This document shows, piece by piece, positions 3,601-64,000 of a DNA stretch of 64,000 nucleotides (its first letter is position 1; each line of letters starts with the position of its first letter). The notes under the pieces are model-generated. The model saw nothing but the letters and a program-made list of their open reading frames with translations, searched no databases and was not told the origin of the DNA. The stretch is from Magnolia sinica. Its lineage: Eukaryota; Streptophyta; Magnoliopsida; Magnoliales; Magnoliaceae. The stretch covers positions 26,952,501 through 27,016,500 of the forward strand of contig NC_080577.1 of the NCBI RefSeq assembly GCF_029962835.1. Direction: 5' to 3'. A program made the translations under genes and the position numbers.

Positions 3601-5921
3601 CTCCTAAAACTCAATAGATCAAAAGTTATTATCGAACTAAAACTTACTATAAATAGTAAAAATGGAAATAAAATGGATTTTCGACTGCCGATCTGATGGA
3701 ATCTCGCAAATTCGGTGTGGGTAACCCAATGGGGTTGGTTGGCTAAAGTAGCTTCTCCTACCCATAATCATATATGGTATGTCGAATAACTCATTCCGGT
3801 TTGCAAGATATGCTTGTTTTAAGATTCTGATGGTCCGAATTACTTCCACCTCTGATCGGGCTTTCTCTGTTCCATCTTGGCCATGAAATTGTCTGTGACC
3901 TGCTTTACATCATTCATGTCCCTACTCAACATATCAATCTAGGTCTCTTTTAGGTCTTCCTCTCATTTCAGGCGCTTCAAACCTAGTCAATGTTCCCCTC
4001 CTTAGCCATTGCTGTTCTTCAACCAAACCATCTCAACTTGCTCTCCCTCATTTTATCTCTAGGACTACTGTTTGGCTGCTTCGCATGATCTAAGGCATCT
4101 GTTACTGAACTTTCATGAAATTGCAAAATTCAAGATTGATTTATCGATGCTTTCATCTTCTTGATAACTACTTTTTAAACCAACTAAGAAATCATACATC
4201 AATGGTGTTTACTCTGTTTTGTTCTCCAATTTGCATTTGGTAACATTCCAATTGCAATTAAAAGACAATCAGTTCACTGATTTGGTTTTGGGGTGGAGTG
4301 AATTTAGTAGTTGTAACTGGAGTTTGATTTTTGAGAGGCCATCAATACCTACTTCAAGAAATTGACAAGTTCTTCATCGTGAAGTTTGCTAATTCCACAA
4401 ATGTCTATATCCTGGCCTCTCCCACATGCCAACACGGCACGCATTTGTAAGATCTCACACTAAGTAGTTGCCGTTGCCCAAGTACATGCATGTGGCATTA
4501 GAAAACCTTCTTCATCATAAAACTGAAACATGGGAAGTATTTGGGATCCTTTTTCTTCTTCTTCTTTTTAATTGATTCACATCACATTCTTGCCTTGTGT
4601 TGGTATTGTTATAGTTACTGTCATTTCTCCTGTAAACTTCTTACTTCTTTCAAATTGAGAAGGCAATAATCATGCCCCATTATCTCTCCCATCAGGTTAA
4701 CATAGCAATCTGATTCATGGGCTTGCAAATAAGGGAATGGTCTAAGTTTAGCAGGGTCCTAGTCAAATTATTAGGATCATGCAATTGGGGAGAATTTTCA
4801 GGGTGTCTTATAAAAAGGGCCTACCATGTGAATGGCTTCGATCACCATAATATGGGTCTCACATGCATAATTTGCTAACTGTTTCCTTATAAGGTTTGAT
4901 TGTAGCTTTTACAACTGAAACATTGGACTTTGAGTGCATAAATCATGAGGCAATCATGCCCCATTATCTCTCCCATCAGATTAACATAGCAATCTGATTC
5001 ATGGGCTTGCAAATAAGGGAATGGTCTAAGTTTAGCAGGGTCCCAGTCAAATTTTTAGGATCATGCAATTGGGGAGAATTTTCAGGGTATCTTATAACAA
5101 GGGGCCTACCTTGTGAATGGCTTCGATCACCATAACATGGGTCTCACATGCATAATTTGCTAACTGTTTCCTTATAAGGTTTGATCGTAGCTTTTACAAC
5201 TGAAACATTGGACTTTGAATGCATAAATCATGAATGCATGGAGAGAATTTTCCAGGTGTCTTCCACCAAGGAGCCCACGACCATACGTCTGAAATGCCGT
5301 TGTGCGCTAGCGCACATATGTTTTGAAGCTGAAAAACGTATGCATGCGCTCAGTAGTTTTTCAGCATGGCTTCAAAGCTTATTACATAAAACATGCTAGT
5401 GCCCCTAAACAATATTTATAGTCGTTTTCATGATTCGGAATCAACCTAACTTACTAAGCCCCTATCATAGAGGTGACCAAAGCCGTTCTGGTCACCAAAA
5501 TATGGGTCCCACATGCATAGTTTGCTAGTAGTTTTATTTTAATGTGTGATTGTGGCTTTTACATCTGTAACATTGGAGTTTTGAGTACATGAATACTTCT
5601 TTTTTCTTTTGATTTTCTTAAATAACTCTCCTGCCTGAGTTTTGGAATTCGATTGTACCTTCCTTGAATAGGAGTCTTCCAATTTGAAATGAATTTTTTT
5701 GCATGTACATTGTACAGGCTAACTCCATTCTCAAAGACCCAAAGAGGTTCCCAGAGTTGGCTGATCCACTCCTTCGAGGGGAATTCCCAGAGAGTTGTCT
5801 AAATCAAGCAGTCACCATTGCCGCCATGTGTGTCCAAGAGGAATCCACAGCCCGTCCCTCAATCACCGAGATTGTTGCCTCACTTAGCTTGCTTTCAAAT
5901 CCAATCAGCAATGACGATTAG
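612..5921 (+). CDS. RLCK-VII/PBL-type receptor-like cytoplasmic kinase gene, probable pseudokinase (5 exons)
   Basis: Exons join in frame as 612-629, 1105-1251, 1366-1540, 1909-2300 and 5718-5921, all with GT-AG borders, giving 311 residues and a stop at 5919-5921. The product matches the PBS1/PBL class of cytoplasmic kinases, which relay signals from cell-surface immune receptors. Seen motifs: [10 protein letters not shown] near residue 20; VAIK with Lys60; [10 protein letters not shown] with the alpha-C Glu near 71; [23 protein letters not shown] near 197; [16 protein letters not shown] near 212; and a C-terminal lobe ending at 311. Catalytic features are altered: the glycine loop reads [10 protein letters not shown], the HRD Asp is Asn (HRN, 151-153), DFG is GFG (171-173), and about seven residues after VAIK are missing. 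An N-terminal Met-Gly-Cys acylation motif is absent. The frame and splice sites are intact, so a catalytically dead but expressed protein is possible. The first six-residue exon is the least certain part. Confidence 0.75.
714..1003. repeat. MITE in first intron of the RLCK-type gene
   Basis: A 15-bp perfect inverted repeat, acttgtgtaggggat, bounds a 290-bp non-coding segment. The segment also contains a half arm of the 'ctctgtggggcccac' hairpin family near 956-990. No clear target duplication was found. Confidence 0.55.
3203..3902 (+). repeat. Interspersed repeat, copy 1
   Basis: It matches the segment at 6979-8238 in the same orientation from 'gggatggacatgatgagg' to 'ggccatgaaattgt', apart from an extra insert in the second copy. 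It contains ttactataaatagtaa twice, once in each half. No protein is encoded. It could be a solo LTR or a large MITE; the class is not settled. Confidence 0.65.
4661..5232 (+). repeat. Tandem duplication, two units of about 286 bp
   Basis: The units 4661-4947 and 4948-5232 begin 'aggcaat' and end 'aaatcatg' and differ at only a few positions, so the duplication is recent. It lies inside the last intron of the RLCK-type gene. Confidence 0.85.
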
Positions 5922-8238: not shown

Positions 8239-9837
8239 GATCTACATCAGTGTAGATCAACACAGCCCGAAGGTTTGGAGTGGAAGATTTTAAGGAAGTG
8301 TACTCACTTAAGTTTCTGTGGTGAATTGCAAGTCGACGAGCTCTGGTTTCAGGAGGATTTGCAGTCCCACAGTGAACTTCAAGAAACATACTTCCTTGGC
8401 TTCTGATAGGGAGAGATCCCACAAAAGATGGTGGATGCGGCAACTTTTAATACCTCCGCTTGAACTTCTTTCTGCAACTTGAACAATACTTCTTTGAATC
8501 AACTCCTTCAGATAATCCTCTCCAACCTCTTCCAATGTTAGCTCCCCTCTCTGTTGAAGTAACCCTTCTGCAGCCCTTATTCGAATCAATTTCTTGGTTT
8601 GGAACTTGTAGTCCTCTGGAAATTTTCCTAGGTAGAGAAAACATGGTTTTAAGTAATAAGGCAGCTCTTTATAGCTCAAAGATAATATGCCAGAGATTTT
8701 GTCTTCTCCCTTGACAAATTGCCAACTGATGCTACATTCTCCCACTCCCTTCTTTCCACGATAAGAGTCCCCCAATAACTACAATTGCAAGAGGTAGACC
8801 ATGACATTTTTCCACGATCTCTGTTCCCAAGTGCTCCAAATTCTGAGGGCAACCATTATCTTGTCCTGAGAATGTTTTCCTACAAAACAGATCCCAGCTC
8901 TCTTCATTGTTTAGAAATGGCAGTTCATGAGGCGGGCTTCGAGCATCTGCATGTAAAGCTAAGTCTTTGTTGCGCATGGTGAGCATGACCCTACTTCCAT
9001 TATTCATGTCCAGGAAAGCATCTTTGACGGCATCCCATGCTTGGTTTGTCCATATATCATCTAATACCATCAGGTATCTCTTCTCTTGCACATACACAGA
9101 AATTTGATGTTTCAGCTGAATGACGCTTGCTTTCTTGAGCTCCTCTTCTGATAGCACCATATGGCAATTTAGGACGTTCTGCAGAAGATCTCTCTCACCA
9201 TACTCTTGTGATATAGAAATCCATGCACAAGATTCAAAATGAGTCTTAATACTATCAGTGTTATAAACTTTCTTGGTAAGAGTGGTCTTACCAAGACCAC
9301 CCATTCCGATGACAGAAACAACACGATGTAGCAGCTGTCTGTCATCGATCAACCGCAAGACCAACGCCTCAAAGTCCTCAAAACCAACAAAATTTGGTTC
9401 TTGAAAATAAGGAGAAGTGAGCCTCCATTCTTGGAGGCTGAGGCCTGAAGAGCTCGTCCCCGCTACGTGGCCTGTATTTTCAATTCCATAATTCAACCTA
9501 CTTTCGGAGGTGGCACGGATTTTATTCTTTATCCATTCAATCTTCGAGCCCACCTCATGTCGAGCTATCAACTCACTGAAAATGCAAGCATACCTTTTAA
9601 TGCAGCCCACAAATCCACTTCCCCTTAAGGTTGCTATCTTGAAGACAGGTTTCGATGACGTCCTCAGCATTGTATGCAACGTCTCTCACATCCCGCACCC
9701 AGTTCTTTACTCTCCTATCTCCTTGTTTGGCGTCTGCATCTTCCAAGAAGCATTGCATCCACCTTAATTCCGCCTCCAGCCATACGACTTGATCACCAAC
9801 GCCATGTAAGAAAATGGCTTCTCGAATGAGTGGGTCA

Positions 9838-13408: not shown

Positions 13409-41054
<27,646 letters not shown>

Positions 41055-43910: not shown

Positions 43911-44698
43911 AGGATGCCCATGAAGCTTGATACACAGGTACTCAGAAATTGTACATGTGAAAATAAATTAACTCAAATTAAACCGACTAAATTGTGGAAC
44001 CCACTGTCGATAAGTAAAATAAAAAATATGATGTTAATTTAAAATTTATATTATCTGATTCATTGATACTTGTTTATGGAAATAGGACCGTTGGATACTT
44101 CAATTTTAACAATCTAAAGTGTGTCCACCAATCTGATAGTCACATGATGTAAATTTTGGTTCATGATACCGCTGAACCAGGAAGCATGATTTGGGTAGTC
44201 TAATTTGAGTTATTTGTATTCAAAGTATGCAATTTCCAAGTGCATGTGCATCATCCACCACACTCCGCCGGAGTATCAAACTTCTTCTATTACATATGAT
44301 ACGCGACCCGGAGCTTTGACCGCATACACATGTTTTTCTTTCCAATCTGACAAGTGGAGCCCGTCGTGTAATCTATACCGTTGATCTGTTATCTCCCACT
44401 GTGGACGGCGTATGAGATAAAAAATTCAGAATATTTTGACGTTTAATTTTAGTAATTTCCATTTTAATGTGGAGAGTTTTATTTCCCTTTTTTAACCATC
44501 TATTATGGACTGTGAAAATGTCATTCAGGAGTTTTTATTCCAGATGTTCAATCCATGTTGGGATACAATAGATCAACGGTGTCGATTAACGATTCATCTG
44601 TCCACTTTGTCGAAACTGGAAAAAGGTGTGTAATATTTGAAAACGTTAGGCGTACACCACATAATTCAATCAGCTGGTAAGAGGATTTTGAGCAAATG
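43911..44698. other. Upstream flank of SnRK1 alpha
   Basis: It has AT-rich stretches, including 'gtgtccaccaat', which resembles the AT-rich interior of elements E1-E3. No gene was seen. Confidence 0.35.
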
Positions 44699-44789
44699 GC
44701 CTCCAAGTATGACTTGAGCGAGGTTTTGACCTCTCACTCAGCAACCTTATTTTTTTCATCCTTAGGGGACTTTTTTTTTGTTTTTTTAA

Positions 44790-47700
44790 GGATGAAATTG
44801 CCTTATGCCACATGCCTTTTTGAATAGAGGATTGTGGGTCTGACAAAGTTATAAATGGGTCCACTCCTTTAAAGTTTTAATCCATTTATTTGTTTAAGGG
44901 CATGCTGGGACATTGGAGGTCGTTAATTTCATCTTCATTCAAGCCTTCTGTGGCTCTTAATGGAGATAATGGTCTTTCTTTTATAATTGTTTCCTCTAGT
45001 GTGGTCCATTCCTAATTTTTCTCTCATTCTTGGGGCCATGCCTTGAAATTATTTTTTCAAGCTAATGGTATAAGTGAATTTTAATGGAGATATATGGTGG
45101 GGCCCACAATAATAGTCTGAAAAGCTATATGTGAGGTTAGACCAAAATTCCAACCCATTTTAGGGATTTTATTTTTATTTAAAGGTTTTGTAAGAGAGAG
45201 GATCACAACCCGTTTGAGAGAGGGGGGACCACCACTAAAGAAGGTGGTTAAGATCGATGCTTACACCTCCATGGAACCCACTTCGGCAATCTTCCAGCGT
45301 GTTTACAGTCATAATCCCTTCATTTCGACAACATTTTGAAACTTGTCTTCATTTTGGCAATCTGTTTCAAGTTTTTCTTCAAGGGAGTGTGACTGATATG
45401 TCAGATACAGATAATAATGTGTAATTGGTTTGTTTTTTGGGCAGGTGGCCATTGTGAATCACATGTGGGTACTGTGGATCACCCTGGCCAGTGTTGATCC
45501 CACCTAGGGCACCCTGTGGATCCTACATAGGCACTCTCTGAAGCCTACTTGAGTAATGTGGATCCCACCTAAGCATACTATGGATCCCACTTGGGCACTT
45601 TTTTTTGTGAATGTTAAATTAATGAATGTGTATGTGTATGTTATTGTAGGTTGTGAATGTTGAAATATATGAATGCAAATACGAGTGTGATTGTTAATGT
45701 AGAAGTGGATATGGATTTTGAATTGAATGAATGAGAATGTGGAAGTGCATGTGGGTGTGGAAGTGCATATGACTGTTGATTTGTACCAACGAAGATGTGG
45801 AAGTAGATATGGATGTGGAAGTGGATATGAATGTGGAAGTGGTGGATTTGTATGAATGTGGATGTGGAAGTGTATGCAGTTGTGAAATTTAAATCGTATG
45901 GTGTAAAAATATGGAAGTGCGCTTGGATGTGGAAGTAGATGTTAATGTTGATTTATATGGTGTGCATGTGAATGTAGTTGTTAATGTTGAATTGTATGAA
46001 TACAAATATGGTAGTGCATGTGGTTGTCGAAGTGAATATGAATGTTGATTTATATGGTGTGGATGTGGATGTGATATAAATGTTGAATTGTATGAATTAA
46101 TGTGAAAGTGCATGTGAATATGGTTGTGGGTTGTGAATGTTGAACTATATGAATGCAAATGTGATAGTGCATGTGAATGTTGAACTATATGAATGAAAAA
46201 AATGGGAACATATGTGGATATGGTTGTAAATTTTAAATTATATGAATGAAAATATGAAAGTGCATGTGAAATATAGTAGTGGATGTGTATTTTGAATTGA
46301 ATGAATAAAAATGTGGATGTGAGTGTGGATGTAGAAGTAGAAGTATATGTAAATGTTGAATTGAATGCATGAAAATGTATAAGTGAATGTAGATGTGGAT
46401 GTAGATGTTAATGTAAATCTAAGGGATGTATCCCCTGAGCATAGTGGATCGCATTGGAGGGGGAGCGGATCCTCTCTGAGCACTGTGGATCTCACTTGGG
46501 GGTGGATCCCCCAAGCACTGCGGATCGCACCTGGACCAAGTGTGATTCATAATGCTTGATGGGATCTTCCTATACTCACATCTTCATTCACATACCTATC
46601 CATATTCATATCTTTGTTTACATCAACATCTTCAATTTAACATTCACATCCACATTCACATCTATATTTTTATTCATTTACATTCAACATTCACATCCAT
46701 TTCATGCATTGTACAATCGCATCCACATTATGATTCATTCAATTTAACATTCACATCCATTTATTCATTCATTTTATTCAACATTCGCATATCTCATTTT
46801 TTCAAATAATATGATTTATTTACAAATAGTGTATGTGGATGTGGGATGTAGATGTGAATTTGAAATTGTCTGAATGTAAGTGTGGTAATGCATGTGAATG
46901 TGATGTTGAATTATATTAATGTAAACATGAAAGTGCATGTGCATGTGAATTTTGACCTGCATGAATGAAAGTGTGTAAGTGGATGTGAATTTTGAATTAT
47001 ATGAATAAAAAATATGAAAGTGAACGTGGATGTAGAAGTGGTTGTGGATGTTGAATTGTATGAATGCGAATATGAAAATGTATATGCATGTGGAAGTGGA
47101 TGTGAATTTTGAATTGTATAAATGAAAATATAAAAGTGAATGTACACGTGAATGTTGAATGAAATGAATGTAGAGGTGAATGTGGACGTAGGGGGTGAAG
47201 CATTGTGGATCGCACCCGATGCGAGGTGGGGGGATCCCTTCCGAGCATTGTGGATCTCACCTGGGAGTGGATCTACCCTACCCCGAGCACTGTGGATCTC
47301 GCCTAGGGAGGAGGGGTGGATCTCCCCTACCCTGAGCATTGTGGATCTTGCCTAGGGAGGGGGGGTAAATCACATAGTGCTTGGGGGGGGGGGGGTGATC
47401 GGAGTCACCCCTACCCTGAGCAGTTTGGATCCTCCTCCCAAGGTGCGATCCATAGTGCTTAGGGGGATCCACCCCCTAGGTCCAAATTCACTTCCATATC
47501 CACCTTCACCTCCACCTCCACTTCTACATCCATATCCACCTTCACATTCACTTTCACATTTTCATTCATTCAATTCAACATTCATATCCACTTTCACATT
47601 CACGTTTTCATTCATTCAATTCAGATTTCACATCACTTCTGCATTTTCATTTATACAATTTGAAATTCACATCCACTTTCATATGCACATGTACTTTCAC

Positions 47701-49122
47701 ATTTGCATTCATACAATCCAAAATTCACATCCACTGCCATATGCACATGCACTTTTACATTTGCATTTATACAATTCAACATTCGCATCCACTCATACAT
47801 CATAAACATATCATATTCTTTAAAAATATATGAGAGAAGACATGAATGTTTAATATAATAAATGGACATGTGGATGTGAATAATGAATCAAAATATGAAT
47901 GTGGACATGGAATGGATAAAGCGGATGTGAATAATGAATATGAATGAATGAAAATGTAAATGTGGATGTAGATGTGGATGTGGATGTGGAGGTGAATGTG
48001 AATGTTAAATTGAATATGTAGATGTACATTTAGATAGAGATATGAGGGTGGATGAATCCCCATAAGCGTGGATCGCACGACCTCTTAGGTGCGGTTCACA
48101 GTGCTTGGGGGGATCCACCCCCCTCAGGTGTGATCCATAGTACTCAGGGGGGATCTACCCCTCACGTTCACATTTACTTCTATTTCCACATTCACCTCTA
48201 CCTACACCTTCACATCCACATTCACTTCTGGAGTGGGTCTCACATAGGCGGCAACAATAGTCCTAACTACCTTGTAGGGTAGTGGTCCCCTCTCTCGAAA
48301 AAAATAGCTTCCACAATAATTCAAGTAGGACTTTCTTGTCCTACATAACACTTTTTGGACTATTATTGTGGGGTTCCCCATGCATCTCCATTGAAATTCA
48401 CTCCAACCATTAGCTCGAAAAAATAATTTTAAGGCATAACCTCAAGATTAAGGGAATAAGACATCATGAGTGAACTACACTAGATGAAATAACTCCGAGC
48501 AGAAGTCTGCTATCATGCCTATTTGGGTGCAACGGAGGTCTCGGATGAAGATGAAATCAACATCCTCTAATGCCCCGGGATGATACGAAACAAATGAATG
48601 GATTAGATATCTTAAGGAGCGGGCCCATTTGTGGCTTCGTGAGACCCACAATCCCCTCTTCGAAAGGGGTTTCTTCAACTTATGAGTTATGAAAAAGAAA
48701 AGAAGAAACAACTAAATGGCCTTATGTGGCAAGGGAACCACCTTTTGAACCTGTCTTGGATCTTATGTAGGGCCCACTAGATTGTCGTGAAGCAAATTCA
48801 ACTCATCCACATCAAAGGGGCTCTAATTTCATGTCATCGGCCCAAGTTTAAGGGCAAAACTCATTACGAATGGACTAAATCGGATAAAATAATTCAGAAT
48901 TAACGAACAACATTTATATAGTTGTGGGCCACTTAGAGCTTTAACAAAAAACTAGAAAAATCCTTTTTATGGGTTAACATCCGTCCGTTAATGTGAACGG
49001 ATCAGATCTACTAAGGGATGGGCCCAATCATTGTTTTAGTGGGGCTCACAATCCATTTTGAAAATGATCTCTCAAATTTTTAAGACAAGTTGGCTTCTAT
49101 GATGGAGTAGGTGGCAAAAGGG
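44790..49122. mobile_element. Element A: foldback-type element inserted in the left arm of B
   Basis: A left arm (44.79-45.29 kb) matches the inverse of 48.24-48.76 kb over about 500 bp (for example 'gaattttaatggagatata' against the inverse of 'catctccattgaaattcac'). A second, diverged right arm in the same orientation runs 48.77-49.12 kb. Between the arms lie only degenerate tandem repeats. No coding capacity was seen. Exact ends are uncertain by some tens of bases. Confidence 0.6.
45450..48235. repeat. Polarity-switching tandem repeat core of element A
   Basis: There are two unit types: a roughly 6-bp degenerate GTGGAT/GTGAAT unit and a roughly 24-bp unit around GTGGATCCCACCTGGGCAC. The 6-bp arrays read forward at 45.64-46.43, 46.83-47.19 and 47.84-48.04 kb and reverse at 46.56-46.80, 47.49-47.82 and 48.16-48.23 kb. 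The 24-bp clusters sit at the switch points (45.45-45.60, 46.43-46.54, 47.19-47.48, 48.05-48.16 kb). Confidence 0.75.
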
Positions 49123-49310
49123 CAAATTTGGAGTTTTTTTTTCTACTGTACGCCTCACTTTTAAGCCACCCACCTTTGTCATTTCCTCCAAACTTACTTT
49201 ACCAAACTAAGCCCTTGTTGTACGGCCACACTTTTACTAGACCAAAATGCCTTTGCTATATCAGAAACGTAACTTCGAAAGCTGCTGTTCACCTCACGCC
49301 GTTTCACCCT

Positions 49311-49590: not shown

Positions 49591-49839
49591 TCATTTTCGA
49601 GTTTTGTCAACCCAAGATAGGATGAAAATGGTGCCCCCATGAAAGAAGCTACGAATGGCAGGTATATTTCAAATCCTTAACTTCGTTATGTGGACCCCAT
49701 CGTATTTTATATGATATATCCGCACCGTCCACAATCCAGTTATTTTATTTAAACATCCTAGGGCATATCCTGAAAAATGAGGCAAATTCAATGCCTAAAT
49801 GTCCCACATTGAGGCTTTTTAAAAAAAAGAACAAAGACT

Positions 49840-50560
49840 GAAGTGAAATTGAACGAAGACCGATGTGAAATAGACTGAGGATCGACTGAAGTTGTTTGCG
49901 AACTAAATTAAATTGACCACGAACTAAGTTTTGATGACTGCGAATTGAATTAAATTGACTGCAAACTAAGTTAAATTGACCGCGAATCAAGTTAAAATGA
50001 CCATGAACTAAGTTAAATTGATCATGAACCAAGTTAAATTGACCACGAACTAAGTTAAAATGACCGCAAACTGAGTTAAAGTTGATCACGAACTGACTTG
50101 AATTAACCGCGAACTGAGTTAAATTGACTGAGGACTAAGTGAAATTGATCGATGGAGGCTTGAAATTGACATCTTGACCGAGAACTGTGTCAAATTGACC
50201 GATAACTGCTTAAGTGAGTTCTCAGTCAATTTCACTCACTTATCAATTAATTTCATTTAGTACATGGTCAATTTCACTAAGTTCACGGTCAATTTGACTT
50301 AGTTCGCTGTCAATTCAACTAAGTTCGCGGTCAATTTCACGATGTTTGCGGTCAATTTAACTGAGTTCTCGGTCAATTTCACGATGTTCACGGTCAATTT
50401 AACTTAGTTCAAGATGTCAATTTCAAGCAGTTATCAATCAATTTCACTTAGTCCCCGATCAATTTCACTTAGTCCGCGGTCAATTTCAATAAGTTCGCGG
50501 TCAATTTTAATCAGTTTGCGGTCAATTTAACTTAGTTCGCAGTCAATTTCAATCAGTTTG
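49840..50560. repeat. Inverted pair of 21-bp minisatellite arrays
   Basis: Forward units (gaactaagttaaattgaccgc) run from 49840 to about 50210, then the same unit in reverse (gcggtcaatttaacttagttc) from about 50215 to 50560. The open frame of repeated GQFNLVR heptads on the minus strand is a by-product of the 21-bp period. Similar units resume at 51.84 kb after an inserted LTR. Confidence 0.85.
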
Positions 50561-51843
50561 TGTTGAGTGTGAAATATTACATATTTTTTTCTATTTATAA
50601 TTTGGATTTATAAACATGATAGTGCTTAATTGATTTAATTATGCATGTTTTCATATGCGAGATGATTTCGAGAATTTAAGGTGAGATCGATATCAAAAGG
50701 AAGATTTATGTTTAAAAGATTACCGAATAAAGATTTAGAGGTCTGTTAGTCATTGGTGAAGAATTCACATGCCAAAGATCCAAAATAAATAAGTGAGGAA
50801 TGAAGAGAATCAAAGATTTGAAGTGAAAAAAAAGAATCCTGAAAATAAACATATTCCTGAAATTGTCCTAAAAATATATGTTTTAAAAATCTGAGTCTTC
50901 TTTAGAAAACTACGCAGAGTGCGTAAATTTGAGGCGGTTTAAACTCTGAGTCTATTTTGAAAAGCTGTACAAAGTGTGTAAATTTGAGGCAGTTTAAACT
51001 CCAAGTCTATTTTGAAAAACTGCGCAGAGTACGTAGATTTGAGGCGGTTTCTAGATTTTTTCAATTCAGTGCAAAAGTTGGAGTTCCACAAATATAAATA
51101 GGACTCCCTAGGATGCTCAAAGTATCCTCTAGGGTTTGAAAAGGTCTCACTGAGCATAGCACAAGGGTGGAGTAGTTGTTAAAGAGTTTTTCTTCTTCCC
51201 TAGTTTATTTTTCATGCTTTGTTTAAGAGCTTTTGTTTCATTCATGTCTATGGTTGGCTAAACCTCTTAGCTAGGGCTAAGAGGTGAAGCTTGTAGCTTG
51301 TTTTGATGTTTATTTTGCTTTGATTCTTGTTCTTATTGAACCTCATTGATTTATAGTTTGATATTAAATGAATATTTCAGTTTTCTATAATTTATTATGA
51401 CTCAAATAATAATAGATACTGTGATATCTTTGGATTTATTCTCTTCCTATTTTGAAATAGCAAGATTAGTAAATCCCGCTGTTCACCATTGTCTCATGGA
51501 CATATTAGGGTGATGGAGTCCCTTCCAATCATCACAATTCTCCTCCATTGAGAATTAGGTCAATGAAAAGTTTAGATTTGATTTAAATTGCTTCATCTTC
51601 TAATAGAATATGATATGACTCTAATTCCAATTGTGTTCCTTGAATCAAGTAAGGTAGCATCTTGATAGCTACAAGTGGATCCTTGGATACCATAGTTCCC
51701 ACCTTTAAATTCATAAGTTTTAATCAACACTATTCACTATTGCTCTCAATTATTCAGATTTCAAATTAGATCTTTTTCTAGTTGTAGTTGTAGTTATTTT
51801 TAGAATACGTACAAGTTTCGTCCATGTGGATACGGCCTGTTTG
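50556..51843 (+). mobile_element. Solo-LTR-like unit in element B (fossil)
   Basis: The unit 50561-51838 (1278 bp) starts tgttgagtgtg and has gtttg on both sides (50556-50560, 51839-51843), inside an otherwise continuous minisatellite array. A TATA-like atataaata lies near 51.09 kb, and the end 'tccatgtggatacgg' resembles the 3' ends of some Ty3/Gypsy LTRs. No internal retroelement region is present, so it would be a solo LTR. A short tandem repeat of about 61 bp lies at 50.88-51.05 kb. Confidence 0.55.
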
Positions 51844-51864
51844 CGGTCAATCTCACTCAGTTCG

Positions 51865-52446
51865 CAGACAATTTCACTCACTTCGTAATCAATTTCACGA
51901 TGTTCTTGGGCAAAAATGCAACATATAACTCGAAAAAATGACCAATAATTGAGTGAAATTAGCCGCAAACTTGTTGAATTTCACCTATGAGTCAAGTACT
52001 TTGACTTGGAATTCGTTAAAATGACCGACGATTTGGGAAACTGACACTATACTTTATGATTTCTTACCACAATAAGTCAACTTTCACACTATACTTCATT
52101 AAATATTGAACGTTATTGTTAATATATTTTTCAATTCATCCTTGTAGTTTGCAAGTCAAATTGACCGATAACTACTTGAAATTGACATCGTTTTGACCGA
52201 GAATTTGTAGAAATTGACCGACAGTTTCATGAAATTAATTGAGAAATGAGTGAAACGAGCCACAAACTTATTGAAATTCACCTATTAGTCGAGCACTTTG
52301 ACTTGGACTTCGCCAAAAATGACTGCCGACTCGGGAAACTGACATTATACTTTATGATTTTTCACCGCAATAAGTCAACTTTCACAGTATGTTTCATTAA
52401 ATATTGAATGTTATTGTTGATATATTTTTCAATTCATCCCTGTAGA
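51865..52446 (+). repeat. Direct duplication in element B, period about 297 bp
   Basis: Two units share caccta(t/g)(g/t)agtc..., gggaaactgacat and 'attgttgatatatttttc'-type sequence (51971-52155 against 52268-52446). They are moderately diverged, so older than the duplication at 4661. Confidence 0.75.
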
Positions 52447-52490
52447 TGGAAAGTGGTGGATTTGTAGGTAGAAAGAAGAAATATTCTAAA

Positions 52491-55400
52491 CAACCTGTGA
52501 GACCCGACCCGAGTTCGCATGTGTGCATGTGTGTGTGTGAGTATGCATTCCGTCCATCTTGATCCCGCGGTCCTACCGGTGGAATCCCGGCGACCCGTGA
52601 CCCTTGGATAATGTTTGCGGTCATCCGTGAGCCCAGTCATGAAGACCCGACTCGGATCGAGTTGAGGCCTATACCATTGTGACCGCATCGTCGTTGCGAT
52701 TCCAACGACGCGTCTTGTGCATTCATCCGACTTATAGATCAAAAGTTGTGAGCATTTCATCATGTGGCCCACTTTTTGTACAAAAGCATATGGACCACTC
52801 TCAGGCACAAGTTCCCATGCACACCACCCACACACACTACAATTCCCATAGAATAAACACTACCAATCCTAAACACTACCCACACCTAACCTACCCTAGC
52901 AAACATTGTTTGTATCACCATAGGTCATGATTTCTTTCTCTAACTAAGGAGGGAGAGTAATGATGACTCCCCTACAACCTTCCCTTCCTCTCTCTCCTCC
53001 TTCATTCTCTCATTTTCCTCTTCCATGGAAGAATTTTCAGCCCTCCCTCTCCCAATTTCCAGCAATTTTCCCTTCCTTTCTTCCTCCATCTAGCTACCAC
53101 AAATTCATCTTGACCATTAAACCTTTAAGCTTGGAGCTTGGAGTACCTAGTGTTGGTGGTAGCTTGAAGATTCAAGGTGGGTGATTATAATTGTTGATCT
53201 TATTTTCTACCCTTTGATCTTTTTTTTCTTTCTAGATGGATCATATGGGACCCACCAATCCATGGTGGGGATCCCATTTGATCCCATGGATGTGGCCCTT
53301 TGGCCCATCCTACATGCATGTCATGATCCATGATGGGGCCATTCTCCATGGACCCCATCATGATGTATTTTATAATCCACTCCATCTTAAGGTTATCTAT
53401 ACCCTAAGGATCATGTTGGGATGACATCCCAACCATCCATAACAATTATATATCATGCATGTAGTGATTTTATGTTGCATGTAAAATCAATGTAGTTGTA
53501 TGGGTATGATTCACTCTTGGGAGGGCCCACTAGTGGCGGGGCCCTACCCCCATGACCGGATTACTCTCTTTCCTTCTTTTCTTTCTCTGATGTATGGATG
53601 ATAGTGTGTGTGTGGCCCATTTATAGTGGGCCTTGGATGTCCCAAATAAATAAAAATAAAAATCCAGCAAGGTGGGATGCTCTTATCACCTAACTCCATG
53701 ATCATCGGACACCTTAATCAAATGCATGCAAGTGTCCTAGTTCTAGTATGTGATCTGGACTTATGTGGGACCCACTGAGGAAGGCCACACACCCTTTTTA
53801 TGGCTGGGATTATTGAGATATAGGCTGATGTGTCCAGCCATGTATTGCTGTCCAAAAACTTGGACTGTTGCGTGGATTGTCATGTTCAATCTTTGGCATG
53901 GATTTTTGGATCATGATTGTCATTATTTTCTTTATAAGTATGGAGTGTAATGAGAAGGTGTGGACCCCACCATGAGGTGTGATGGGTCATACCTCAGATG
54001 GTCCATGATATGGTACCCAAAAAGGAGGCCCATAGGGGTGGGCGGTCCACCTTGTTGGGCTGTCCAACCCACATGTATGGAGGGAAAACATACACTTCAG
54101 CTTGGTTTCTCTGAAGGATGGGCCACTTTTATGGACCCCACCTTACTTTATTTTATGAAGAAAATACTAAACCTCCATTTTTCCCCTCTTGGATGAAGGT
54201 TGGGCCCACCTTATTGGGTAAACAATGCATGGACAGCAACATCCCTTCCTGGACAGATTGAAATTCTTAATTTAATTAAAATATTTATGAGTATCCAAAA
54301 ATCATAAAATTTTACAGAGAGGTGGTTCACTTATGGTAGGACCCACCTACAAAATTTTGGGGCCAATGGACACCTGTACACACCATGGTGGTGGCTGGAC
54401 TGGCCCATTACAATACGGTGTCCAGATCAGTCCGATTTTTAGGACAGATTGATTTCTTTAAATAAATTAAAATATTTATATATGTCTAAAAATTCTGAAA
54501 TTTTGTGGAGATATGTTCCACCCATTCTAGGACCCACTTACCAAATTTTAGGGCCAATGGACCTCTGTGTACACCGTGGCAAGGGCCGGACTGGCCCACC
54601 ACGTTGGGACGTCCAGGTCAGTCCGATTTTCTAGACAGTTTATTTTATTTAAATAAATTAAAATATTTCTAAGTGTCCAAAAATCTTAAATTTTTGTGGG
54701 GGTATAGGTCACCTATGGAAGTATCACTCTGTAAAATTTCAGATCCAAAATACATTTGAGTTGCCCGTGGTATGGCTGGAAGTGGTTTGCTAGGCAGGGA
54801 CGCCCAGGCTGGGGCATCTAGCCTGCTTCGTGGGCCCACCTCGATGTGTTGAATGTCCCACCACCCATCCATGTAGGGTCCTTAGGGGATTGATCATACT
54901 TGCCCCCTTTTTATTCAATTAGAACACATTAGGTGGATTTTTGGGCCATATACCCCAGGTCCATAGGACTGCCTACACATGGGACATCCCTGCCTTAGGC
55001 TACTGCTGGGCTTGCATTCTAACAGTCTGGCCCATTTCATATATGTATTGTATATCCTCTCTCATCTGGTGGGGCCCACAGTGATGTGTGTGAGCCATCC
55101 AGAATTAATTATACTAAGAAATACTTCTAATGCTGAACTCCAACCAACCCAGAAATTTGGGTGGGCTGGAATTTGGCATTGAGCCCAATAACTGTTGCCT
55201 ATAGATGTTCTTTGGGGCAATATGGCCCACTAGATTTGAGGAGGATTTATGTCAGTATCTTATCATCTTAATTTTTATTTTTTTGGGGCTTAATTAGTGT
55301 ATGATTAAAGGCCCATCCCAAATAGGATTCTTCTTGGGCTAGTCTCTTAGTTAAGTAAGGGCCTTATAGCCTTGGTTGGGCTGGAACTTTTGATAGGCCC

Positions 55401-57257
55401 ATTGAACCCTTGGGTCCTATATTTACCATGTCATTGTGATGGGCCTTATGGGCCAAATACTCAAGTAGTTGGGCCCTTGTTTGCCCAGTATAATAAATCC
55501 ATACTTGGGCCGAGATGTGAGGCCCAACTTACATGTGTTAAAAATTTAAGAATTTCCCATATGTTGGGATAATGGGCTGCCCATTAGGCCTACCACAATG
55601 AATGAACCTATGACCCTTATGGTTGGGCCCTAACCTTGCTTAAGGGCCCACCAGGTTGCCTTTGTTTTTGGGCTTAGTGTATGGCCCACTAGGCCATAGG
55701 TTGATTGTGCCTTGGACCTTTCTTTGCATATATAGTAGGCTACCTTTTGGGACCCAGTTGAGGTTGAATGTCCTCCTTGGTGGCCCTAAGGTAGGCCCAT
55801 AGAGGCCCTTATAGGTGGTTAAAGGCCCACCTTGGGCCTGGCTAGGACTGTTCCTCCTTAGGATTTTGACTCTCTTAGTTTGTGGGTCATCCCAAAGTAC
55901 TGGGCTCCCACTAGAGGACTTCTCTTCTTCTTAGAATACCTGTCGATGTGCCTAGATCTTGACCCTCCTTGGGACAGACGATTTCATATTCCTCAGGTAG
56001 CACACTTACATCGTTGCAACCCATATGCATCATCTGTATGAATTGATTGCATTGTATAGTGGTCATTCAGGGATGGAGTTTCTTCCCTTTTGCACATTGA
56101 GTACTTGAAACTTGTGCATGATTTGTGTGTGTGACTCATGCATTGGCATCGCATTTCATGAGGATACCGCCCTTGCTTCATCAGGGCCTTGCCTCCACAG
56201 GGACATTTGTGGATGGCCGCATGTGTGGACACCGGAAATATTACTTGAGCATACTGGGTGCGTAGGATGCCCATGGGTGAGATTCTCAAAACTTTCATGG
56301 TACCAAGGATCTGCTCCAACGCCGTGACCGGGTGGAATACATGAGCGCATGAGGGCCTTATACCGTTAGGCCGCGACTCCCACTGTCGTGTAGTCGGTTG
56401 GATAGGGGTGTGGCCTTACCTGCCTGGTGTGAGGAGGCATTGCTAGGCTGAGTCTGACCAGCTCGTAAATGGGTCCGCTACCTTCAGGCCTTGTTGGTGA
56501 TTGGTTGTCCACAAGCGGGTAGTGAGGTCTCTTACGCTCGTTTGACTGGGTCTGCAGAGCGGCGGTCATTCAGCAGTGTAATGGACCCCGGTGATTTCCT
56601 TATGATTGAAAATGTACTTGACTTATGGTTTGGATATGAGCACTGACATTACTTACATCGCATTAGCATTGGCTGTACAAGCCCCCCTTTCATACATTGC
56701 CTTGGTATGGCACTCATTACTTATTGCATCGCATACATGGTAAGCCTTGGTAAGACTAGTGATATGTTCATTGATTATGCTTCTCTCCTTATACCTCCTA
56801 CTATTCTTCTGTGCACCATTGTCACACACTTACACCACCCTCTAAGCTTCTATAAGCTTATGCACGATTGATACGTGCAGGAGACTCTAGGTAGGCGCCG
56901 TAGCAGCAGAGCATGGAGTAGAGTTGAGCAGTGAGGACTCCAGTGTTGCTGATTTCTCTCTCTTTTCCTTTTTATTCTCATGTATGTCCTTTTGGACCTT
57001 CTGGATGATTGTAAAAGTTCAAATTTTTAGTGGATTTTGTGATGTGTGCCTTTGTTATTCTCAGATGTACTTGTTGTGATCTTGGGTATGCTCGCATTGG
57101 AAGTGATTATATTGTTATGAAAATCCTCCTTGTAAGATCCCAGGATCGGAACCTACCTCAGGAGCCGAGAATGGGGTACTACGGAGGCTGTTGCGGCCAG
57201 AACCGGCCATCGGGTTCCTTGTGAGTCCGGTTACCGAGTCTGGGGCGTGACACAACC
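52491..57257 (+). mobile_element. Very long solo-LTR-like unit, 4.76 kb (fossil)
   Basis: The unit 52496-57252 starts tgtgagacccg and ends ggggcgtgaca, with caacc on both sides (52491-52495, 57253-57257). Ends of TGT...ACA type and a 5-bp duplication fit an LTR. No gag, protease, reverse transcriptase or integrase sequence was recognised inside, so it appears to be LTR only. A reverse copy starts at 61807. The exact flanking repeat suggests a fairly young insertion. The lineage is probably Ty3/Gypsy, not certain. Confidence 0.65.
54251..54800 (+). repeat. 190-bp tandem repeat inside the long LTR
   Basis: Nearly three units start at about 54251, 54442 and 54632 (ggacagattg...). Each has attaaaatattta and a 'ggccaatgga' segment. 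The period is 190-191 bp. Confidence 0.75.
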
Positions 57258-57740
57258 TTACCTCTCATAGTCGCCATATCAGTGAAATTCGTGTGGAAGA
57301 AGAAAAAGAAGAGTGCGTTGAAGTGAAACACGATTTTCGGAGATAAGCCTTCAAGATTCCACATTTAGGATGGAAGATGGCAGATGATAGATGTAAAGTA
57401 GTGATTCAATAGAGATTTGATGAAGAAAATGGGTGAAAATAAGGAATATTTTGATATAGATGAGTTCAGACATTTTTTTGGGTGTGGGTGAGTGAAAGGA
57501 ATGCAAGTAATAAAGCAGGGGCATTTTGGTCTAGTAGGTAAAACTGCAGCCGTACAACAGGGATTTAGTTTGGTAAAGTAAGTTTGGAGGTAACGACAAA
57601 GGTAGGTGGCTTAAAAGCGAGGCGTATAGTAGGAAAAAACTAGCAAATTTGTGCTGAAAAAGAAAAGTCACCCAAGTTTAAAAAGGATGAGCTTTCTCAG
57701 TGAGAGGTCAAAGCCTTGCTTACATCGTACCTGGTGGTCA
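57258..57740. other. Right part of element B
   Basis: This is the sequence between the long LTR and the right inverted end. A minus-strand frame of about 60 codons with an ATG is present but has no recognised similarity, so I do not call a gene. Confidence 0.4.
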
Positions 57741-58090
57741 TTATATTAAAAATCCCCTAGAGAAACTTATTAATTAGTGAATTATCACATAGAATTTGTA
57801 TACATGGCATTTACTTAGCTTAGATTAAATCGTTTAGAAATGGGACCCTGTGTAGATAGGTCATAATCACAGAATAGACTTGATTTAAACGTCCTGGCTA
57901 ATTAATAACGACCATTTATTTAGTGCATCTTAACCATTGATTTAACATCATTTCAGTACATTTGGTTACACCTCTGCTTCACTTTTCTTGGTTACTACAC
58001 ATGAATCATCGCACACTGCTACAATATCTCCTTGGCTCATTTTGACGAGCTACGCTAATTCCCATGCATGTCTACATGCGACTTTCTCGC
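57741..58090. other. Spacer, no gene seen
   Basis: AT-rich sequence to the right of element B. No recognised feature. Confidence 0.35.
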
Positions 58091-58860
58091 CACATGTGAA
58101 TAGATTGGTGGTGCACTAGACGGGCCCCACTATGTGCTTCCAAATACACATTACATTGTGACCCAACACCAAGTAGCTCAATGATGTTAGGATGTGGGTG
58201 ATGAGATTTGATTTGATTAGACCCATCCCACTATTAGAGATGGGCCGTCCAGTGGGTACTCGAGTTAACAACTTTGGATGAAGATTATTGGTGACCCAAA
58301 GACTCCATAGTTTGGTGGTGTTGGGCACATAGCAAGATTTGATTGGACCATGTGCCATCATTGAAGAGGACCACACAAAGCATGCTTGAAAGTTGTTAGC
58401 TCACCTCTAACAATACCATGTGATCCAATTAAATCCTGGTACATCACAACACCATCAAGCTCCATGATGTTTGGGTAATCATGCATCGAGTTAAACAACT
58501 TACAAATATGCTTTGCATGGGCTCCATATCTGGTAGGAGCTCATGGCCTTATTAAATCTGGTGTTGAGGTCATCATGCAATCCACATCCATCTGAAACCA
58601 TGCCTTTGAAGGGATGTGGATTGCATGGTAACCATAACAACACATACCTCAGTGGTGTTGGGACATGATGGGATTTGATTGGGCCACATGCCACTATTAA
58701 AGATGACTTGATTGAGTACCCACTTGACCTAATAACTTTCAAACATGCACCTATCTCTGACAATAGTACACGACCCAATCAAATCCCTCTACATCCCAAA
58801 TCCACCTAGGCATGTGGTGTTGGGGTCATTAAGTAACTGGTGTCCTTTTCAAAGCCAAAA
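58091..58860. repeat. Cluster of diverged hairpin repeats
   Basis: Degenerate copies of gatttgattggaccatg and its inverse (gacccaatcaaatccc) alternate three or more times, with 'acaacaccatcaagctcc'-like and 'gtggtgttggg' segments between them. They look like tandem or nested copies of one small palindromic MITE. Confidence 0.5.
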
Positions 58861-61806
58861 TGCAAATGGGCAGGGCAGTTCTTGCCATCACCATCGCCCA
58901 GGCCACTTATCCCAACCATTGCATGCGTGCAATGCCGAAGATGCTCATCTAGCTGTTGTTGGCAATTCAATCAAACACGGTGCTACACGTGTGAGTGAGG
59001 ACCTGTATTTAGATTTTATGTGCGATTATGATGTGTGGGCATGCTAGAGTCATACTTGACTCAATTTTTTATTGAACGTTGGTGCCCCTGCGCCAAACAA
59101 ATGCATAGGACCGAATTCGGAAATCCAGTTATCAAATCAACCACCAATTGAAATCAATGTTCGGGTGATTTGTGAAATTGATAAGGATTAGTACTTTCTG
59201 ATGGATTCTTTTTGCCTTATGACTTCATAACTTTTCTTTCAGCAATGATTGTAATTAATTTCAAAAAAAAAGGACGAACAGATAAATAAAAAGAAGGCTA
59301 AATAATGCCGATTTTTATTAATAATTAAATATGTGGCCTATTACAATCGACCAAGTATTAAAATAAAAAAACAAGAGATAAATACCCGATCCATTTGTAT
59401 GAACAAATGATTAAGGTGAATGATCAACAAGATGTGACCAGAGGGATGTGACTTCCTAAGAACTCAGTTGATCGGGATCCAACAACTTAGGGCTATGGAC
59501 ATTCAATCTAATCCTATAGTATTGTAACGATGAGCATTGGACAGTAGTGGTCTATGCTAAGATTAGGCTATGCTATACTATACTAGGATAATCAAAAAGA
59601 TAAATGTAAAGAAGATGAATTTGTGTTTGGTGTGAGTCTCAAGGTCTTCCTCGTGTGCTTTTTATTTTATTTTATGTATATAGGTTGTTAATGTGGCTAA
59701 ACCCTCATTGGGTTTCCTCATTGATCCTAGATCCTCCGTGTTTACGACATGCATTCAGGATAGGAAGGTCTCTGCTTTTACATAGATGGTCTCCTCTAGA
59801 AAACAACTGCATATAGATTTGGGATCGAGGACATTGGCTTTTAGATCTTTGTGTAAACAGTATCTTGGATGATGTTACATATAAAAATAGACCTATTAGG
59901 GGAAGCTTTACTACTAATCCCGAACCTGAAATCAATCATGATCACCCATATGGTGACCTAATTAAACTACCTCCTATAGGACTTTGAGCTCTTTCTCCAT
60001 TTTGATTGTGGTCCTGGAGGGGTCAAATTGTTCAGGACACTATTGCATTAAAAATAACTTTGCCAAAGTTGAAATTGTGTGGATAGTTTACCACGACATG
60101 CGTGGAAGTTTGGCGGAGCTTAGAATTACGGCTAAGTCTTTGAGGGGGTACATAGGACCAGTTAATTTTATTTTTTTACATAATTAACTAATTTACCAAT
60201 TTAATTCAATAAGACAAATAACACTCGGGCTTACAAACAAAGTGGGTCCAATCACATTGACTACAATAGATGTAACATTATAAACAATTATCTATAAAGG
60301 AGATAGTGATCTTATGAGTGAGATGTGATCAATTAGATTCCTAACATTCAATCCAAATTAAGCAATTAAACCTACAAGTATGAATATAAATGTACACAAA
60401 TGACAATGTCAAACACAAACATATATAGTGGTTCGGCTACTAACCTACTCTACTCCCGGTGAACGTACTCTCTTCGAGTGTAACAAAATTTCACAATCGG
60501 AGGTTTTAAATTAAGTTCACCTTTAACCATTACAATGGTTTCTCCTGCGCTAACCACTAACCTACACGTACACTCCCGTGTTGGAGGAACACGTTTCTAC
60601 CCGTGTCAGTGGCTCCCATAGAGACTTGTTAATTTTCTATCAGCTAACCAACAACTACCAGCAATCCTAATCTAAGGCCCTACGTACACTCTATCTAAAA
60701 GTTTTCTATGGAGACTAACATGTATGCACCCATGTCCGGTGAATGGGGTCCTAATCCAAGGCCTTACGGACACTTGCTGGAGGCTCCATATAGAGATTAA
60801 CACTCACGCACCTGTGTCCAATGAATTCAATCATACACAAGAACCTATTTGAGTTTGGATCACAAACTCTACATTCAATCCTGCGTAAGGGAAGAGTGTG
60901 AAATAAGCTCTAACAAATGACAACCTTACTTGTCAGATTTAGTCATTTTGTAGCGCCTTCTTAAGATACTTCTGTAATACTGTCATGTGCTTGAATTAGT
61001 TTCTCAATTGCTCCCATGATAGTTGATGTCAATGGTTTAACTCTATGATCAAACACATTGCATGCGATGTACCAATGAGGTGACCAAAGTGACAGGAAGA
61101 TGGTGGAATCTCCTACAACTAATGATAATAGTTGGTTCCCATTAGGGATTCACTTAGATGAGTGTTCTAGAGAGTTTAAACAAGGATATGCCTATAGGTT
61201 TGCGTTTAATCTTTAGAATAAGGTGGAGATCAAGTTCATCTTCCTAATGGAGGTTAGAATCCTCATTATAGTGGTAAAACTCAAGAAGATGACTTGAATC
61301 TAATAGGTTTAAAGGTTTATGATGAGAGATATGAGTGGGGAATCATATAAGCTCTAATTGGATAACAAATCCATCCAAATGCCTGATGCTCGAATGCTCT
61401 TTATATAGAAAACAGTTTGCCACGACTATAAAATAGGTAGAAAAATAGCATCCTTGATCGATTGACCGAGGGCCTTCGATTGATCGAACATCGTCAAAAT
61501 ATGCCAGAAAAACTTGTTGGACAATTTTGGCCATCTTCAATTGATTGAGCTTTGCTCGACAATCTGCTTTTTGAGCAGTTTAGTCTACAACTTTGAACAT
61601 CTTTTAGCCTTTTAATCATGTTTTAAATGAACTCCTAAGGCTGATGGATGATCAATTAAAGGTTTTCCTATTAAGGAATGGATCATTTGGATGTTAGATT
61701 GTTTTGGCTTTAAGATTAGGGTCACCAAGGCACCTTGTGAATTATCCGTTGTTCACTCCTTTGTGCTTCTTGTCCTCTTATGTCTTTGATTTTCATCTTC
61801 CAAGGG
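58861..61806. other. Gene-poor stretch, old LTR-like remnants possible
   Basis: Around 60.42-60.61 kb the 'gtggttcggctactaacc' segment, and around 61.35-61.57 kb a 'tctttatatagaaaac' box with 'atcgattgaccgag' repeats, resemble the flanks and promoters of plant LTR elements. They may be parts of one old minus-strand copy. No borders, coding domains or host genes were found. Confidence 0.3.
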
Positions 61807-64000
61807 TGTCACGCCCCAGACTCGGTAACCGGATTCACAAGGAACTCGATGGCCGGTTCTGGCCGCAACAGCCTCCGTAGTACCCCATTCTCGGTTCCTG
61901 AAGCAGGTTCCGATCCTGGGATCCTACAAGGAGGATTTTCATAACAATATAACCATTTCCAATACGAGCATACGCAAGATCATAACAAGTAAATCTGAAA
62001 ATAAAAAAAGGCATATATCACAAAATCCACTATGAATTTGAACTTTTACAAGTTTACATAAGGTCTAAAAGGACATACATAAGATAATAGAAGAAAGAAA
62101 GGAAGGATGCAATACTGGGTCCTCAAGCTCAGCTCTAATCCAAACTCTGCCACTGCGACACCTGCCTAGGATCTTCTGCACGCATCAATCGTGCATAAGC
62201 TTATAGAAGCTTAGAGGGTGGTATAAGTGTGTGATAATAGTGCACAGAAGAATAATAGGAGATACAGGAAGGAGACATGCTCAATGAGAATATCACTAGT
62301 CTTACCAAGGCTTATCATGAGTATGATGCAATGAGTACTGGACGCCATACCAAGGCAATGCGTGAAGGGGCTTACATAACCAATACTAATGCAATGCAAG
62401 TAATGCCAGTGGTCATAACCAAATCGTATGCCAAGTATATTTCCAATCATAAGGAAATTACCGGGGTCCATTACACTGCTGAATGACTGCCGCTCTACAG
62501 ACCCCGTACAGTCAAACGAGCGTAAGAGACATCACTACCCGCCTGTGGACAACCAATCACTAGCAAGGCCTGACGGTAGCGGACCCATTCACGAGCTGGT
62601 CAGATTCAGCCTAGCAATGCCCTCTTACATTAGGCGAGTAAGGCCACACCCCTATCCAACCGACTACACGACAATGGGAGTCACGGCCTAATGGTATAAG
62701 GCCTTCGTGCGCTCATATATTCCACTCGGTCACGGCGTTGAAGCAGATCCTTGGTACCATGGAAGTTTTGAGAATTTCACCCATGGGCATCCTATGCACC
62801 CGGTATGCTCAAGTAACATTTTCGGTGTCCAAACATGGTCGTCCACGATGTATCTGTGGAGGCTACAACCCTGATGAAGTAAGGGTGATAATGCTCATAT
62901 ATTATGCAATGCCAGATGCATGAATCACACAATCAACTATGCATCAATTCCAAGCATCCAACATGCTCAAGAGGGAATATTACGTCCCTCGGGAAGACAA
63001 CATGCAATGCCCAATGACACAATCATAACCACACACATAGTGTCATCCAAGCATACAATGATGCACATGGGTTATGAAGATGGGTCTAGGCGCATCACGC
63101 GGTGATATACAAAGTAAATTACATTCCTCCTATCCAAGAAGGAACCAAGACTAGGTACTTAGACAATATCCATAAGGAATCCCACCTCTAGTGGGGGCCC
63201 ATTTACCTGGGGTAGCCCACGAGATTAAGCATACAACTACGGGTCTAAGTAATATAGAAATGAGCCTAGCAACTGTCTAAGATAAGTATCCAATCACTCT
63301 TAAATACAACCGGACCTAAAGGGGTCCATAATGGGGACATTTAACCACCATTCCCCAAAAAGGTATATCAACCATGAACTATATGGATAAAAGGCCCAAG
63401 GAATACATTTAAGATAAAAATAAAAGTAACCACATACATATATTCCTCATAATAGGCCATAAAAAGATATAATACCACTTTTAACAACATGGGCTCTAAG
63501 AGGGGAATTAAGGCCCAAGGCCCAATTCCCAATGGCCATAGAATCCATGCATTAAGTTGGACTTGGTGGGCAGCCCGTGTACACAATGTACGGCTAAAAA
63601 AAATAGGTTTAAGTTTGGATGAAATGGGTCCCACTACATCAGCCCAATAACTAGCGATTTAAGTAGGCAACTGAGGGCCCAATACTATCCTTACCTCAGC
63701 CCACAAGTCCATCAAAATGGTGGAAGTTGGCCCAATGTATGGTTGGGCCAAACTGGGATGTCCCTGCCCAATCTGGGCTCATTGGATGTCCCAAAATTCT
63801 GATCTTAAGATGAGGTCCTCATAAGATCACTAAAAGTGACCCAAAAGAATGCACTGCTTAAGCCCAAAGATTATAAGAAAGCATAAGCATGTAACACGTA
63901 CACAAGTTCTCAATATGGTGAGCCCCACAGCCAAATAAAGTTGTAACCATAAAATTGTACATCGAAGGCCATTTGATAAACTTTTGGCCCGTTTGACTTC
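61807..64000 (-). mobile_element. Reverse copy of the long LTR, running off the window (fossil)
   Basis: From tgtcacgcccc at 61807 the sequence is the inverse of the end of the unit at 52496-57252. For example 'ggccggttctggccgcaac' matches the inverse of 57.19-57.22 kb, and the 'acccattcacgagctggtc' region that of 56.46 kb. The match decays but continues with the same order past 63 kb. About 2.2 kb is visible; whether it is a solo LTR or the edge of a larger element lies outside the window. Confidence 0.65.

Follow-up and report, generated by a model that had tools for sequence, protein, structure and literature searches.

Structure of the element

The window analyzed here is a stretch of 64,000 nucleotides from Magnolia sinica (contig NC_080577.1, positions 26,952,501 to 27,016,500), and coordinates below are counted from its first letter. 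From ~44,680 to ~49,261 it holds an element with a recurring left terminus, long inverted arms, and a core of hexamer arrays whose direction flips. A first-pass annotation had placed such an element at 44790..49122; the location was right, but the element is longer, with one arm on the left and two tandem arm copies, outer (Ro) and inner (Ri), on the right.

On its left side the element is oriented along the plus strand. The terminal domain (T, 44680..44790), whose consensus among copies starts at about GGGGATTTTTACTATAATAGCCC, has a left boundary that is common to many fetched copies, and it is followed by the left arm (L, 44790..45259), a long terminal inverted repeat that is 72% alike to inverted Ri. 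A nonarray stretch ("inner," 45260..45440) separates this arm from the arrays; matches to it occur in 17 of 20 fetched copies, which are not independent of the genome query, as the query contained part of this stretch. The arrays open at their left edge with a GTGGATCCCACC-type cluster recognized by direct reading and GATCC counts (C1, 45441..45600, plus strand) and continue with the forward GTGGAT/GTGAAT array F1 (45605..46420, plus), in which there are higher-order periods near 58 and 97. A GATCC cluster (C2, 46430..46560) marks the forward-to-reverse (F>R) switch to array R1 (46565..46788, minus), and an AT-rich hinge (h+, 46789..46855, plus; hinge profile E 4e-16) marks the reverse-to-forward (R>F) switch to array F2 (46856..47189, plus). 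The central GATCC cluster (C3, 47190..47480) contains, by alignment of the two halves, a mirror axis near 47312.

Beyond the axis the parts return in inverted order: R2 (47482..47778, minus), the mirror of F2 and 78% alike to it over 214 columns; the hinge in the opposite orientation (h-, 47779..47845, minus; hinge profile E 1.5e-5); F3 (47846..48020, plus), the mirror of R1; the GATCC cluster C4 (48030..48165), the mirror of C2; and R3 (48165..48232, minus), a short reverse array below the length of our dense-tract caller and a remnant of the mirror of F1. The right side ends with Ri (48241..48745, minus), with Ro (48741..49125, minus), a diverged second arm copy in tandem with Ri, and with a stretch, X (49123..49261), which is 84% alike to 57651-57510 and stands in place of the inverted terminal domain (T') of the fetched loci L010, L036, L037, and L039. 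Sequence 57510..57758 (minus strand) is a short relative, E, that has neither arms nor core; its T runs straight into X. No RNA family reached its gathering score in 44,600-49,300.

The inverted arms proposed by the first-pass annotation proved to be related when aligned. Positions 44815-45132 align inverted to 48668-48343 with 72% identity over 326 columns, and the local score of 206 compares to at most 32 in 100 dinucleotide shuffles.

Direction flips and the mirror

The arrays had been described as alternating at least six times and flipping about every 300 bases. The alternation is real: the 188 strand-specific motifs in 45.4-48.3 kb form 10 runs, whereas 83 were expected and the minimum in 10,000 label permutations was 59. 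The six main tracts (F1 R1 F2 R2 F3 R3) make only five switches, and instead of a regular spacing they have uneven lengths of ~70 to 816 bases. Such an arrangement is not that of a satellite, in which arrays run head to tail in one direction. An ordinary satellite or microsatellite that was randomly inverted later, and that lies by chance between unrelated inverted repeats, would suit the simple hexamer units with their higher-order periods and the wide variation in tract length among copies. However, the tracts share a common higher-order order and not composition alone (relative to hexamer-block shuffles, z is 5 to 20 when R3 is not in the pair; pairs with R3, of 73 bases, reach only 0.6 to 2.3), no dense tract was called in window positions 1-44,600 or 53,001-64,000, and the same hinges in the same order follow the arm in copies retrieved with arm sequence only. 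We regard this explanation as already largely refuted and as very improbable.

The second half of the core repeats the first in reverse complement. Aligned to the reverse-complemented right half (48163-47522), C2-R1-h-F2 (46457-47106) scores 289, compared to 99 for the direct alignment, and the pairs 46457-48163 and 47104-47524 set the axis near 47,312. F1-C2-R1-h-F2 is thus mirrored by R2-h'-F3-C4-R3; the right half has no counterpart of the inner stretch and of most of F1. By these scores and axis pairs, nearly all of the element is one inverted repeat, and each half contains a smaller hairpin of its own. Our first model of the core, that of tandem hairpin copies, was set aside for the window copy after the inverted second h and the mirror score. 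A series of F-C-R hairpin units multiplied by unequal crossing over, with no mirror, would fit the direct alignment of F1 and F2 (72% over 372 columns) and the fetched copies L023 and L026, in each of which both h hinges have the same orientation. The second h of the window is inverted, however, the core aligns far better to its reverse complement than directly, and L022 likewise has h+ and then h-, all of which makes the tandem-unit model quite improbable.

Large hairpins had also been predicted for this element, and the prediction is supported for the one stretch that was folded, F2-C3-R2 (46822-47812). Its RNA fold has -443.8 kcal/mol, compared to a mean of -277.1 for 20 shuffles, and its DNA fold has -216.3, compared to -119.6 for shuffles. 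Strong predicted folding is what would be expected of any such inverted repeat. If transcribed, copies of this kind would yield long double-stranded RNA, a plausible trigger of silencing. We also considered that short perfect inverted repeats within the clusters might prime synthesis by folding back, as C2 and C3 of the window alone seemed enriched in them, but this was rejected as unsupported over all hinges.

Dispersed copies, hinges, and arm lineages

Odd inner layouts of foldback transposons are hard to sort into assembly error, one-off rearrangement, and inherited design. The genome (1.84 Gb, 127 contigs) was searched with the left arm and inner stretch (44760-45460), with the arrays excluded from the query. 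There are at least 53 matches, including the window's own two (40 of 154 candidates scored). Twenty of the best arm-scoring copies were fetched, and the fractions that follow are accordingly no genome-wide estimate. A direction switch occurs within 400 bases in 10 of the 20 (L010, L012, L014, L016, L019, L022, L023, L024, L025, and L026); five have forward tracts only (L009, L011, L018, L020, and L028), four have no dense tract (L015, L017, L021, and L027), and L013 has both directions, far apart. L013 and L021 agree at 89%, also beyond the limits of the element, and look like a segmental duplication.

The two kinds of switch have different hinges. The first-pass annotation had put 24-bp clusters at the switch points, which is correct for F>R switches only; the GTGGATC/GATCC clusters also occupy the left edge of the arrays. 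GGATC/GATCC is present at 15 of 16 F>R switches over 22 sequences and at the single one in L037/L039 (16/17 together), compared to 0 of 11 R>F switches over the same sequences and 0 of 2 in L037/L039 (0/13). This tally leaves out E and L033-L035, and two of its R>F cases come from a single stretch that is duplicated in L012. At the window's own R>F switches (~46.8 and 47.8 kb) the AT-rich hinge h takes the place of the clusters. A profile of h built from five sites gives 13 matches in 9 of 25 sequences and none in the reversed sequences; it also matches L037, and altogether it accounts for 10 of 13 R>F switches, that of L010 weakly. Both the window and L022 have a forward h followed by a reverse h. 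For the 58-base unit of the arrays, 33 occurrences were found; its 16-base core is too loose a marker, with 80 chance matches in 44.7 kb on two strands. In the turned L012, the stretch 3787-4390, consisting of a reverse and a forward tract, repeats 5.37 kb on at 9155-9758 with an identical hinge.

The termini and arms recur along with the hinges. A sharp left boundary ~160 bases beyond the arm is common to many copies, and a terminal-domain profile made from 12 copies matches the window at 44680-44922 (E 4e-27) as well as L010, L016, L023, and L027. The same profile matches, inverted, the right ends of L010, L036, L037, and L039, the last three of which were read from the right side. L010 is bounded at 637 and 4442 with a terminal domain at each end (profile matches 637-943 and 4442-4145), and the order between them is that of the window: left arm, inner, flipping arrays, Ri, and Ro. 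Terminal inverted repeats of at least 100 bp are thus present in L010 as they are in the arms of the window.

Ro was detected by a profile built from L and Ri alone (241 bases, E 4.4e-15; the best match in the reversed window has 0.49), and its pairwise likeness to Ri is weak (score of 35 versus shuffle maxima of 37 and 29 in two tests). Of the four right-end loci fetched via Ro (L036-L039), three show Ro and Ri with flipping arrays after them, and L038, which is counted among the four and is absent from the tree described next, has Ro copies only and no tracts. Five places have the double-arm end: the window, L010, L036, L037, and L039. In a tree of 30 arms, from which L011 with its truncated arm was excluded, the Ri arms of these five places form a clade (99/95), as do the five Ro arms (100/100); the left arms do not form a single clade, and that of L016 lies beside Ri. 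The separate Ri and Ro clades indicate that the three-arm layout predates dispersal and that the two ends have not been homogenized. L033, L034, and L035 are short and are bounded on either side by Ro-like arms; L033 has one forward dense tract, and L034 and L035 have none.

The left-half order and the right-half order of the window both recur at other chromosomal places, a recurrence that a misassembly of this single locus would not produce. Nor are the flips a local accident of the window copy: copies diverged by ~25-30% have hinge h, both right-arm lineages (Ri and Ro), and the F-C-R-h-F order in common. That copies found by the arm alone share hinges, hinge polarity, and arm order suggests that the design was made once or a few times and was then carried by transposition. 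We have high confidence that the layout is one inherited by a dispersed family rather than an assembly error, as judged from these sequence comparisons.

X was found at two places only among the 25 sequences searched, 49123-49261 and 57651-57510. At the second place, the T part of E matches terminal-profile positions 5-124 (E 2.7e-7), and the flanks 44680-44779 and 49123-49261 adjoin at 57758-57510. This would be expected if the element had been inserted into an older T-X repeat of which 57758-57510 is the uninterrupted version. However, T is continuous with the left arm in many other copies, which argues that T belongs to the element, and the stretch shared with 57.7 kb starts at the family's own terminus. 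The empty-site reading of 57.5-57.8 kb was dropped as our main reading once T was seen to join the arm elsewhere, and it is kept as a rival of small probability. For the 57.7-kb place, we favor a short relative, or a derivative from which everything between the arm bases has been lost, over an empty site.

Classification, origin, and surroundings

Most of the element consists of long inverted repeats that hold short repeats in tandem, and the dispersed copies have a common terminus, as is the case for foldback elements. As in MULEs (Mutator-like elements) with an extra terminal repeat, external and internal repeats that are alike over at least 100 bp lie in tandem, as detected with the profile of L and Ri and with a weak pairwise likeness between Ro and Ri. 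We think it probable that the window holds a degenerate copy of an old nonautonomous foldback DNA transposon family, probably Mutator-like, the layout of which was inherited by transposition. Our confidence is good for DNA transposon status and moderate for membership in the MULE superfamily.

Several observations weigh against this interpretation. No convincing target-site duplication, of the 8 to 11 bp expected of a MULE, was found in L010, L033, L034, or L035, and none was seen by eye at the window ends; such duplications may have decayed, as the copies are ~70-78% alike. Among the 25 long open frames listed for the fetched loci, 10 were scanned and gave no transposase or MULE domain, the only domain match being a plant DUF247 gene outside the element, and all 8 window open frames of at least 150 amino acids, which were scanned in full, gave disease-resistance and reverse-transcriptase pieces and no transposase. 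The right end of the window copy halts at terminal-profile position 122 (49125), after which X begins and the terminal domain is missing. Ten of the 20 fetched copies have no nearby switch, h is unmatched at 3 of 13 R>F switches, GATCC is missing from one F>R switch of L010, and the paired same-orientation h hinges of L023 and L026 are unlike a simple mirror. In addition, short perfect inverted repeats at F>R hinges have a density of 4.3 per kb, compared to 8.3 for the window background and 1.7 for the tracts.

Some of these points would be explained if the family belonged to another superfamily of DNA transposons or were a nontransposing product of recombination, namely, the lack of a clean target-site duplication, the lack of a transposase in the frames scanned, and a right end of the window copy that is unlike the left. 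Against this stand the left terminus that recurs in many dispersed copies and the presence of that terminal domain, in inverted form, where L010, L036, L037, and L039 end on the right. Inverted arms of hundreds of bases, such as those present here, are moreover a hallmark of MULEs. We consider this alternative unlikely, although it retains appreciable weight.

The first-pass annotation knew of no named element with this design. As far as our literature searches went, the family is indeed undescribed, whereas its kind is known from foldback elements whose arms are filled with repeats and from MULEs that have extra repeats (PMC3310237). No description of two-hinge direction-flipping arrays was found in titles and abstract openings; most subscription papers lay outside this search, so that absence from print is unproven. 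The comparisons that follow refer to the portions consulted of the cited papers. MULEs that carry one additional terminal repeat on one side occur in tomato, rice, and maize and were almost never amplified (Ferguson and Jiang 2012, PMC3310237); in tomato, only 1 of 12 distinct solo-extra-repeat elements had another copy (PMC3310237). The Magnolia element resembles them in its long inverted arms, in the tandem external and internal copies at one end, and in being nonautonomous; unlike those in tomato, its double-arm end is present at five places, and its core is a mirror of flipping hexamer arrays, which the consulted part of that paper (PMC3310237) does not describe; no target duplication was seen here. 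Like foldback (FB-type) elements and Tm1, a Mutator/Foldback family of root-knot nematodes (PMC3169594), it has composite inverted repeats of tandem short units and is inverted repeat over nearly its whole length; Tm1 in contrast has 9-bp target duplications and ~14-bp units, and second-level flips within one arm are not mentioned in the text consulted (PMC3169594). Galileo of Drosophila (PMC3573991) shares the internally repetitive long terminal repeats, and its inverted extension TIR1-F1-F1-TIR2 offers a model for the mirror, whereas it belongs to the P superfamily, has units of ~210 bp, and is without two-hinge hexamer arrays in the sections consulted. Tetris of Drosophila virilis (PMC4079207) is likewise a nonautonomous foldback element with tandem repeats inside inverted repeats but has ~220-bp units expanded into satellite arrays and an animal host.

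The mirror implies that an inverted duplication happened; it does not tell by which route. As a working model based on analogy with the Galileo proposal, a transposase encoded elsewhere would bind the terminal domains and move the whole block, and a break at an excision site would be repaired with the other end as the template, such that subterminal sequence is copied in inverted order and forms the mirror. The smaller hairpins would have arisen earlier by a separate local inverted duplication at a GATCC cluster, with the hexamer arrays expanding and contracting afterwards by slippage. The layout would then have been carried by transposition, and the flips would be fossils of the founder rather than signs of a continuing process in the window copy. 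Template switching or inversion at the clusters as the source of the first copy is a guess. It is also conceivable, if improbable, that the two-hinge nested mirror is kept for function, with the clusters and h being where strands preferentially exchange or hairpins extrude and the core being rebuilt and reflipped during excision and repair; the inner pattern would then be heritable and slowly changing, and the 57.7-kb place would be a remnant left after the whole hairpin was lost at its base. Models of how inverted repeats grow, by template switching or by gap repair, can be tested on the many diverged copies.

Other repeats lie elsewhere in the window. A second repeat hairpin (49830-50560) lies 0.6 kb to the right of the element, with 21-base units running forward to ~50,195 and in reverse from ~50,230 and a self-inverted likeness of ~70%. 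Further 21-base pieces occur at 51838-52454, together with a 211-base direct duplication (51947-52156 versus 52244-52454, 86%). Three related elements (17221-19090, 19740-21650, and 38350-40650) have AACGGCCGTTAC-type repeats near their ends, and two of them have a 430-base imperfect palindrome that partly shares arm sequence (E 6.5e-14 and 9.4e-11). An inverted pair of 1.17 kb (56083-57253 and 61806-62977, 85%) and a tandem duplication of ~282 bases (4668-5233, 96%) are also present. On the minus strand, 8308-9679 contains pieces of an NB-ARC disease-resistance gene with a plant-type winged-helix domain, and 26817-29169 contains reverse-transcriptase and zf-RVT pieces that are non-LTR-retroelement-like, the zf-RVT match being under the curated cutoff.

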